This document shows positions 61,294-63,914 of a stretch of DNA of 64,000 nt, piece by piece. The notes beneath the pieces are model-generated. The model searched no databases, had not been told where the DNA came from, and saw nothing but the letters and a program-made list of their open reading frames with translations. The position numbers and the translations under genes were made by a program. The stretch's first letter is position 1; each line of letters opens with the position of its first letter. The stretch covers positions 62,001 to 126,000 of the forward strand of contig NZ_BAABRS010000001.1 of the NCBI RefSeq assembly GCF_039545095.1. The letters are read 5' to 3'. The stretch is from Fodinibius salicampi (GTDB lineage: Bacteria > Bacteroidota > Rhodothermia > Balneolales > Balneolaceae).

Positions 61294-61659
61294 GGATGTC
61301 AGGTATAGTTCCGGATGTTTGAATAGCATATCGATAATTTTATGAGTACCTGTTTTTTACTGTTTTTATTTGGATATATATAAAAATATCGGATATTAAA
61401 GCTGCTTCAGGGTATTTTAAAGTATGTTTATATAGGTACAAAAGTACATCAGGCTCATATCTAAAAATAATTTATGGGGTTTACCGCTATCAGTAAGTTC
61501 GAAGTTAGGAATACTTTGGAAAATGAAGAGTTATTCCATTACTGGTACAGGCACTGTGGCAGTGAATCACACCCGTATATCCGCCGGGGATTAAAGCTTG
61601 TAAAGCGCAGCTTTTCTTTAGAGTATTTCAACCATATAACTTCTTAATTCTGAAATATC
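61294..61659. other. Region upstream of the cobalamin/kinase pair
   Basis: A 366-bp AT-rich gap. A 57-codon ORF (61474-61647, MGFTAISKFEVRNTLENEEL...) ends 12 bp before the cobalamin-binding gene. It has no recognisable family and codon use looks ordinary, so I leave it as a low-confidence small gene. No clear operator is seen. Confidence 0.4.
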
Positions 61660-62727
61660 ATGTCAGATTCAAATAGTTCTGTTGTACAGAGTTTGGAAGA
61701 ACATAAGCAAGCGCTGGCGCAAATTATGACAGATCTCTATTTCAAGAATCATCCTGAGTTGGTAGAAGAATACGGTGAAAAAGCAAAAGAGAAATGCTAT
61801 GAAGATGCGATTTATCACATTAATTATTTAGGTCAGGCTATTCGTGTTGACAGCCAAAAAATATTTAATAGTTATTTAGATTGGGCTCGTACAATGCTCA
61901 AAGAACGGGGCGAAGATGTAAATGATCTGATAGATAATATAAAGTTTTTAAAAAAGGCTATTTATCAAAGGATTCCCAGAGATGAAGCTTCTGAGCTAAC
62001 TCTTTATATCGATCGGGGACTAGCCGTCTTACAGAATGAGGAGGTAAAAGAGCAATCATTTTTTCAATCTGGTGATCCATTAGTGGAAGAAGCCCAAACC
62101 TATCTTGACTTTTTATTATCAGGTAAACGTACAGAAGCTGGTGAATACATTGATAAGTTGGTAAAAGAGGGTGTTGCTATAAAGGATATTTATGAGCACA
62201 TATTTCAAAAGAGTCAGTATGAAGTGGGAGCACTTTGGCAGTCCAATATAATTAGTGTGGCCCATGAACATTATTGTACGGCAGCAACCCAGCTTATAAT
62301 GTCGCAGTTGTACCCCAAGATATTTTCCACGAAAAAGAAAGGATACAAGCTGGTAGCTTGCTCAGTGGCCGATGAACTACATGAAATAGGTATTCGCATG
62401 GTGGCCGACTTCTTTGAAATGGAAGGGTGGGATACCTACTATATGGGTGCCAATATGCCGGCACATAACCTGGTTAGCGCTATAAAAGAGTATGAAGCCG
62501 ATGTCTTAGCCGTTTCGGTTACTATGCCACTTCATCTTGATAAAGCCGGTAAACTGATTAAAACTATCCGCTCCGATTCGGAAATTAACGACCTCAAAAT
62601 ACTGGTAGGCGGTTATCCATTTCGTATAGAACCTGAATTGTGGAAAAAGCTGGGAGCTGACGGATCAGCGACTTCTGCAAAAGAAGCTATCAAACTTGCA
62701 ACAAAATTATCTACCCAAAAGTCATGA
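61660..62727 (+). CDS. CarH-like cobalamin-binding (B12) sensor protein without DNA-binding domain
   Basis: This is a 355-residue soluble protein. Residues 1-130 are an unassigned helical domain (no MerR helix-turn-helix). Residues about 137-225 form the four-helix B12-binding cap, with Trp193-x9-Glu203-His204 (LWQSNIISVAHEHYC), the motif that in CarH photoreceptors contacts the adenosyl group. Residues about 228-350 form the Rossmann B12 domain with Glu239-x-His241-x-x-Gly244 (base-on His ligand motif), YMGANMPAH and LVGGYPFRIEPELW. It likely binds adenosylcobalamin and could sense light or B12. Its last codons overlap the histidine kinase gene (ATGA), so the pair is a sensor/kinase unit. 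Confidence 0.9.
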   Translation: MSDSNSSVVQSLEEHKQALAQIMTDLYFKNHPELVEEYGEKAKEKCYEDAIYHINYLGQAIRVDSQKIFNSYLDWARTMLKERGEDVNDLIDNIKFLKKAIYQRIPRDEASELTLYIDRGLAVLQNEEVKEQSFFQSGDPLVEEAQTYLDFLLSGKRTEAGEYIDKLVKEGVAIKDIYEHIFQKSQYEVGALWQSNIISVAHEHYCTAATQLIMSQLYPKIFSTKKKGYKLVACSVADELHEIGIRMVADFFEMEGWDTYYMGANMPAHNLVSAIKEYEADVLAVSVTMPLHLDKAGKLIKTIRSDSEINDLKILVGGYPFRIEPELWKKLGADGSATSAKEAIKLATKLSTQKS

Positions 62728-63914
62728 AACATATAGCTAAAGGAATCGCTTTACTTCTAGATGAAACGGGGTTGATTACAGAAGTTATACAGGATAACAT
62801 GGCGTTTTTTGAAGATAAAAACCCATGTGGAGCTCCGCTTACCGCCTATTTGTATGATGATAGTGTCCAAAAAAGCTTTGAACTTATTTACAGGATAAAA
62901 AAAGAAGGGGCTGCGTTTGATTGGGAGATGCATGCCAGGGTAGGTGGAGGAAACCATTTTCTTACGTTTTCTGGTATTAAAATCGAGAACGGCATTATTA
63001 TGGTTGGGACTACCAGCTCGGAAGACACCGAAACGTTTTTAAATGGACTAATGGAGATAAATAATGAGCAGCTTAATAAGCTGCGTTATTTTATAAAGAA
63101 GAAAGGGGGACAGGAAGCTAAAATTGGAAATGATTTTTCGATGTATAACAATATGTCCAGCCTTAATAATGAGCTGGCCAATACGAAGCGAAAACTGATC
63201 AAAAAGACAACAGAGTTGGAACGTATTAATAAGCTGAAAGATCAAATGCTGGGAATGGCTGCCCATGATCTGCGTAATCCCCTGTCAGTTATTCAAAATT
63301 ATGCAGATTTTTTGATGGAAGATATACGAAAAGGAAGTGTCGGAAAAGAACAATACGAGCTGGCGAAAGAGATCAAAGAATCCAGTGAATATATGGTACA
63401 GATAGTGGAGGGCATGTTAGATATATCAGCGATAGAAAGCGGGAGCATTTCGCTTGACAGGGAAGATGTTGATTTACACAGACTCATTCAACGGGCGGTA
63501 TCTCTCAATCGCCCCTCAGCGGAAAAGAAAAATATTCGTTTGGACATCAGTCTGTGTGATGAGTCTTGTGATAAGTTGATTGATTATCACAAATTTCAGC
63601 AAGTATTGAATAATTTGATTAGTAACGCTATTAAATACTCAGAAGCGAATACGACTACCACTGTTGGGATAGAAAAAGATGAAGAAGAAATAATTATTTA
63701 CGTAGCTGATGAAGGGCAGGGGATACCAGAGGAAGACCGGCATAAATTGTTTCAACCCTTCGCTAAAATTGATGTAGAGGCCACTGCAGGTGAAAAGAGT
63801 ACGGGCTTGGGATTGGCCATTACAAAAAAAATCGTAGAAGCCCACGGTGGCACAATAGATGTAAAAACAAAGGTAGGTGAAGGAACCACTTTTTACGTGC
63901 GCCTTCCCGGCTAA
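62724..63914 (+). CDS. Soluble histidine kinase
   Basis: This is a 396-residue kinase with no membrane helix. An N-terminal PAS-like region (residues about 1-100) and a coiled coil (about 145-175) are followed by HisKA (His181 in GMAAHDLRNPLSVIQNY) and the HATPase domain with the N box QVLNNLISNAIKYS, the G1 box VADEGQGIPEEDR and the G2 box STGLGLAITKKIVEAHGG. It starts on the ATGA overlap with the cobalamin-binding gene, which probably controls its activity. No response regulator lies in the window after it. Confidence 0.93.
   Translation: MKHIAKGIALLLDETGLITEVIQDNMAFFEDKNPCGAPLTAYLYDDSVQKSFELIYRIKKEGAAFDWEMHARVGGGNHFLTFSGIKIENGIIMVGTTSSEDTETFLNGLMEINNEQLNKLRYFIKKKGGQEAKIGNDFSMYNNMSSLNNELANTKRKLIKKTTELERINKLKDQMLGMAAHDLRNPLSVIQNYADFLMEDIRKGSVGKEQYELAKEIKESSEYMVQIVEGMLDISAIESGSISLDREDVDLHRLIQRAVSLNRPSAEKKNIRLDISLCDESCDKLIDYHKFQQVLNNLISNAIKYSEANTTTTVGIEKDEEEIIIYVADEGQGIPEEDRHKLFQPFAKIDVEATAGEKSTGLGLAITKKIVEAHGGTIDVKTKVGEGTTFYVRLPG

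Follow-up and report, generated by a model that had tools for sequence, protein, structure and literature searches.

Which signal is received by a B12-binding protein whose gene runs directly into that of a histidine kinase, and how does this signal reach the kinase? The question is raised by two genes in a 64,000-nucleotide stretch of Fodinibius salicampi DNA (the window; all positions below refer to it unless a locus is named), taken from a genome of 3.94 Mb in 11 contigs. The initial annotation had described a cobalamin-binding protein with two motifs of CarH and an unknown N-terminal helical domain in place of MerR, coupled to a soluble kinase, and had proposed that a light or cobalamin signal is passed on by protein contact.

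The B12-binding protein is almost certainly a photocobilin

Both CarH motifs are present in the receptor: G190-A-L-W193 followed by nine residues and E203-H204 (W-x9-EH), and E239-L-H241-E-I-G244 (E-x-H-xx-G). W193, E203, H204, H241 and G244 are invariant in the receptor family (80/80 full-length sequences). As W-x9-EH is invariant in this set and absent from MetH of the same genome, its occurrence is not due to chance. Pfam assigned the region to B12-binding_2 (52.8 bits) and B12-binding (77.4 bits). The published signature of light-responsive B12 domains (SignatureFinder) consists of GxxW, EH, GxxH and GxxxP (PMC11796333); GxxW, EH, H241 and GxxxP are found in the window receptor, and the Gly of GxxH is Asp238, at a position that varies in the family. 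Q194 occupies the place of the bis-His ligand H132 of CarH, where SasPcob likewise has a non-His residue. A PduO-type adenosyltransferase encoded in the source genome provides a route from cobalamin to adenosylcobalamin.

The N-terminal domain, which had been taken as unknown, proved recognisable. Residues 8-119 match PF00502 (Phycobilisome) with 29.4 bits against a Pfam cut-off of 22.2, and a profile of the domain matches phycobiliproteins as well as the bilin domain of the photocobilins 8j2w, 8j2x and 8j2y. In a structural model of the receptor (pLDDT 93.9, built from 53 homologs), the N-terminal 127 residues superimpose on allophycocyanin 4po5_A (Z 17.5, 1.8 Å), and the best matches of the B12 half are the photocobilins 8j2y and 8j2w (Z 26, 2 Å). 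Photocobilins are also nearest to the receptor in a sequence search against the PDB (8j2x, E 6e-23; also 8j2w and 8j2y). Profile alignment places C46-Y-E-D49 on the CLRD of allophycocyanin, the CxxD motif with the attachment Cys. Sequence and profile alignments pair D49 and W75 with Asp270 and Trp296 of SasPcob, both of which are biliverdin contacts in that protein (PMC10979010). D49 is conserved in 77/80 and W75 in 79/80 full-length sequences; at position 46, Ser, Cys and Thr predominate, with Cys in 22/80 only. C46, D49, H53 and W75 are all intact in the window receptor.

The receptor thus unites in one protein the features of a photocobilin, namely a B12 domain with W-x9/10-EH and E/DxH, a photoglobin domain and the biliverdin-pocket residues, and it is almost certainly a photocobilin with inverted domain order rather than a CarH with a new sensor. 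With a photoglobin, a known type of bilin-binding domain, at its N-terminus, the receptor is likely to take its input through B12 together with a bilin. As the initial annotation had noted, the receptor has no N-terminal MerR-type DNA-binding domain, residues 1-127 being photoglobin by Pfam and by the model. CarH (5c8d and others) shares the adenosylcobalamin pocket motifs and the fold (Z about 19-20), but carries a MerR domain where the receptor has photoglobin. The solved photocobilins SasPcob (8J2W/8J2X) and AbDPcob (8J2Y), closest to the receptor by sequence and structure, resemble it in having a B12 domain with the W, EH and H ligand and a globin-like bilin domain with the pocket Asp and Trp (PMC10979010). 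They differ in the position of the bilin domain, which is N-terminal in the receptor and C-terminal in SasPcob/AbDPcob (both orders had already been noted among predicted models; PMC10979010), in the Cys at the attachment position, present in the window receptor and lacking in SasPcob/AbPcob, and in output, a separate HisKA kinase instead of a fused diguanylate cyclase.

The closest relatives of the receptor are found in Aliifodinibius (Balneolota). In 2022, Schneider et al. reportedly described the pairing of photoglobin and B12 domains and predicted that it senses light in the signal transduction of prokaryotes. Elsewhere in the source genome, contig C4 (L005:9920-10804) encodes a separate MerR protein of 294 aa that resembles CarH and has W-x9-EH and ExHxxG; it lies close to PAS-containing histidine kinases.

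Table 1. Features of the receptor-kinase locus and of related loci (window coordinates unless a locus is named)
Feature	Location	Strand	Basis
Receptor, photocobilin (photoglobin + B12-binding), 355 aa	61660..62727	+	ORF, Pfam, PDB matches, model
Photoglobin (phycobiliprotein-like bilin) domain, residues 1-127	61660..62040	+	PF00502, profile matches, model, conservation
Pocket residues of the photoglobin domain: C46, D49, H53, Y72, W75			
Four-helix cap (W193, E203-H204) of the B12 domain	62083..62322	+	B12-binding_2; motif invariant 80/80
Rossmann B12-binding domain, cobalt ligand H241 (E-x-H-xx-G)	62344..62721	+	B12-binding; Z 26
Partner histidine kinase, 396 aa	62724..63914	+	ORF, Pfam, model
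PAS-like domain at the kinase N-terminus, residues 1-112	62724..63059	+	Model secondary structure, alignment with LOV-PAS kinases
Conserved coiled coil LNNEL-xx-xR-x-L, residues 138-168	63135..63227	+	Kept in domain-shuffled partners; proposed contact element
HisKA, phospho-accepting H181	63237..63443	+	Pfam
HATPase_c catalytic domain	63582..63908	+	Pfam
ABM (IsdG-like) gene remnant	61474..61647	+	HMM; protein and DNA alignment to intact copies in close relatives
Kinase-less partners, Adhaeribacter/Rufibacter	L013:7026-7520, L018:7070-7591, L019:6995-7564, L025:6972-7574		

The receptor is linked to a dedicated kinase across many phyla

The coupling to a soluble kinase was confirmed: both open reading frames lie on the same strand and overlap in ATGA (receptor stop TGA at 62725-62727, kinase start ATG at 62724-62726), and Pfam and the model agree on the domains. 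The kinase has a HisKA domain with the phospho-accepting His (57.8 bits) and a HATPase_c domain with N and G boxes (98.9 bits), and H181 is present in 52/53 aligned kinases. Its model aligns over the full length with 4gcz (YF1) and other LOV-PAS kinases, which have the same PAS-coiled coil-HisKA-HATPase layout, and the N-terminus is PAS-like, with residues 1-112 giving no Pfam match. In contrast to these kinases, the light sensor of the window pair would be a separate protein, and its PAS-like domain shows no sign of a chromophore of its own. The N-terminal module of the partner joins the PAS-like domain to a coiled coil in which LNNEL-xx-QREL is near-invariant.

Scanning 84,980 genomes yielded 80 receptor loci, and a further genome search added others. 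Adjacency was scored in 79 full-length homologs, two of which are duplicates of loci already counted. The partner gene lies directly downstream on the same strand in 73/79, many pairs sharing the 4-base overlap, and the range extends from Balneolota to Paenibacillus and Lokiarchaeota; the search for the pair in other genomes that the initial annotation had suggested thus found it in many phyla, archaea included. The kinase module occurs in ten of 198 genomes of the phylum, exactly the ten that encode a high-scoring B12 protein, and in 0/188 others; each of the ten has one copy, with coordinates adjoining the receptor. The fetched loci contain 79 kinases with the module and 34 without it: every kinase adjoining a receptor has it, and none of the 34 adjoins one. 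Adjacency and perfect co-occurrence exclude chance neighbourhood, and we hold it very likely that receptor and kinase form a functional pair.

The partners vary around the coil. It is present without the PAS domain in partners from Paenibacillus and Methanolobus. In Adhaeribacter and Rufibacter, the kinase domain is lost while PAS-like module and coil are kept, giving proteins of 164-200 residues that end after the coil; two of these (L013, L018) are among the 73 partners, and two more (L019, L025) were identified by profile, whereas L068 ends at a contig border. A different catalytic domain follows the same module in L009, L010, L012, L027, L034, L089 and L090, with 21-30% identity to the catalytic domain of the window kinase in the exchanged types where measured, compared with 47-66% in the usual type. 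Receptor relatives without photoglobin (L076, L079-L082, L085, L094) keep W-x9-EH and the partner, which points to a core consisting of B12 domain and coil, to which photoglobin, PAS and receiver domains have been added. The search for a response regulator had a mixed outcome, with none adjoining the pair in the window and a receiver domain fused or adjacent to the partner in 30/90 loci (about a third).

A model for signalling from receptor to kinase

The domain anatomy, the motifs, the gene overlap, the conservation and the co-occurrence are direct observations. Their best explanation is probably a two-component input module made of a photocobilin and its kinase, for which we infer cofactor binding, a light response, the contact site and the direction of the response. 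Adenosylcobalamin would be bound between the four-helix cap and the Rossmann domain; W193 would cover the adenosyl group, E203-H204 would lie at the interface of the dimer, and H241 would be the lower ligand. The N-terminal photoglobin domain would very probably hold a linear tetrapyrrole, with C46 at the attachment cysteine of phycobiliproteins. Cleavage of the Co-C bond by light, green directly and red via the bilin, would change the arrangement of the receptor dimer. The receptor would then act on the kinase by touching the conserved coiled coil that precedes HisKA, and so set autophosphorylation of H181. Light is a probable input of the pair, contact through the coil is an evenly balanced proposition, and occupancy of the bilin site in this particular strain appears somewhat doubtful. 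We place the contact at the coil because it hardly changes even in partners that lack, or have exchanged, the PAS or the catalytic domain. Several observations count against the model: Asp238 stands where the light signature has Gly, many relatives belong to groups in which light is no obvious signal, the source genome has no evident bilin source, and the pair has no response regulator gene beside it.

Standalone photocobilins can act by protein contact, the same route that we propose for the receptor, and photocobilins control a diguanylate cyclase in this way in vitro (PMC10979010). As contact of a photocobilin with a separate enzyme has a precedent, a contact route from receptor to kinase is plausible by analogy and would not be new in kind. 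Of the contact signalling proposed in the initial annotation, the functional link is supported by the adjacency, by the co-occurrence (10/10 versus 0/188) and by the restriction of the module to kinases beside a receptor; its reading of the input changes, from light or cobalamin to what is likely B12 plus bilin.

An upstream ABM-type gene probably supplies the bilin in relatives

A gene for an ABM protein about 99 residues long lies immediately upstream of the receptor in 26/79 homologs, ending within about 60 bases of the receptor start (one at 212). It is fused to the receptor N-terminus in L053 and L056 and divergent in L010. This ABM-type enzyme upstream of, and in two cases fused to, the receptor is new in this analysis. 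The protein scores 52-54 bits with PF03992 and is similar to the heme-degrading IsdI, HmoB and HmuQ. IsdG-type enzymes have the catalytic triad Asn-Trp-His (PMC6018153); in the intact ABM copies neither Trp nor the axial His varies, and an invariant Ser stands in place of the Asn, so that the full triad is absent from the relatives' proteins and the relation is one of family only. The subfamily occurs in 3/198 genomes of the phylum, all three of them receptor carriers. Judging from this sequence context, the upstream enzyme probably makes the bilin in these relatives. IsdG-type enzymes form a product other than biliverdin (PMC6018153), so the receptors may carry an uncommon chromophore.

Cys46 and the ABM gene are associated in the raw count (17/21 versus 9/54, Fisher 3e-7). 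On the tree there are two independent contrasts for the association and none against, and with only two such contrasts we regard it as a lead, not a result. A more far-reaching proposal, which we consider speculative and rather unlikely as a whole, is that the upstream or fused ABM enzyme makes a bilin of the staphylobilin or mycobilin kind in place of biliverdin IXalpha. The enzyme would load this bilin into a B12 receptor that drives a dedicated kinase, with covalent attachment in receptors that have Cys46, and the whole would form a self-contained cassette over many phyla. BBAG-2 clusters (PMC10151467) are comparable in that a bilin globin, a B12 protein and a heme-degrading enzyme are genetically linked, but there the globin and B12 genes are separate and the enzyme is an HO-type heme oxygenase, whereas the window family has a fused receptor, an ABM-type enzyme and a dedicated kinase.

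In the window itself, only a remnant of the ABM gene is left, with 57 codons in frame of about 99. Owing to an in-frame internal deletion, it matches positions 1-17 and 57-98 only of an HMM of the relatives' genes and lacks about 42 residues, the catalytic Trp among them. The related MAG L007, a congener, has no intact copy either, and L006 and L008 keep the gene, which suggests that it was lost repeatedly within the genus. Pfam profiles for the heme oxygenases PF01126 and PF10615 (HugZ-type) found no match in the source genome, nor was a phytochrome (PF00360) found. With neither heme oxygenase and a broken ABM gene in the operon, the bilin source in this genome is not evident. Canonical heme oxygenase was rejected as the source, since PF01126 is absent here and rare in genomes of the ABM group (2/26; 9/43 in other carrier genomes). 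The other ABM gene of the source genome (L116) was rejected as a heme oxygenase, being YgiN-like and without the axial His.

Alternative readings of the pair

Instead of light, the pair might sense cobalamin status (adenosylcobalamin versus other forms, or the cobalt redox state), with the CarH-like fold serving as a ligand-gated kinase switch. Many relatives come from sediment or anaerobic groups (Methanolobus and Lokiarchaeota, Anaerolineae, Bacteroidales) in which light is no obvious signal, which counts against light, and methanogens, Lokiarchaeota, Anaerolineae and sediment Bacteroidales carry the full motif set together with the partner kinase. The relation of the B12 domain to the methyltransferase corrinoid proteins MtgC and MtbC and the retention of the kinase by photoglobin-less relatives point in the same direction. 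However, the W-x9-EH set of light-responsive B12 domains (PMC11796333) is invariant, and D49 and W75, neither of which a pure B12 sensor would need, are kept in nearly all full-length members; we regard cobalamin sensing as improbable. The weak similarity to corrinoid proteins would also fit an ordinary methyl-transfer carrier with the kinase as a chance neighbour. Every NCBIfam corrinoid score is far under its cut-off, though, the nearest solved relatives are photocobilins, no methyltransferase gene is apparent beside the receptor, and adjacency and co-occurrence are as described above, so the likelihood of this reading is negligible.

A photocobilin-kinase module remains our preferred reading, and the state of its bilin site in this strain allows a narrower version, compatible with it: after loss of the ABM gene, the photoglobin may be without bilin, leaving a green-light, B12-only photoreceptor or a protein en route to loss. 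We consider this quite possible, given the deletion remnant, the missing PF01126 and PF10615, a sole other ABM match of the wrong type and the congener that also lacks an intact gene; AbDPcob is reported to bind bilin weakly and yet to respond to light through B12 (PMC10979010). On the other hand, C46, D49, H53 and W75 are intact, with no sign of relaxed constraint yet, and the strain could import bilin or heme products or form them with an enzyme that escaped recognition.

Implications and variants

Standalone photocobilins, whose function is less clear according to the authors who described them (PMC10979010), gain in this kinase a natural partner with perfect co-occurrence. Two further components emerge from the locus and its relatives, a short coiled coil as the probable receiver of the signal and an enzyme as the probable source of the bilin. 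In optogenetics, the module could serve as a kinase with B12 gating and control by two colours. Its spread into organisms in which light is not an obvious signal raises the question of whether such B12 receptors always sense light. Neither a dedicated kinase partner nor a linked ABM enzyme was found in the literature consulted, a scope outside which the 2022 photoglobin study falls, so that a prior report of the kinase pairing or of the ABM neighbour is possible.

Several related loci depart from the common arrangement. The receiver proteins encoded right after the kinase at L061:2217-3011, L071:8226-9047 and L045:5322-6110 share a C-terminal helical domain, for which one of the three has a weak, below-cut-off score with the KaiA C-terminal domain. 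The receptor is split into two open reading frames by frameshift or decay, with the partner kinase open, at L075:5947-7025, L095:1019-2082 and L074:673-1527. In L098-L115, from genomes of the same phylum, W-x9-EH occurs in B12 proteins of only about 215 aa, mostly with no kinase module or photoglobin nearby.
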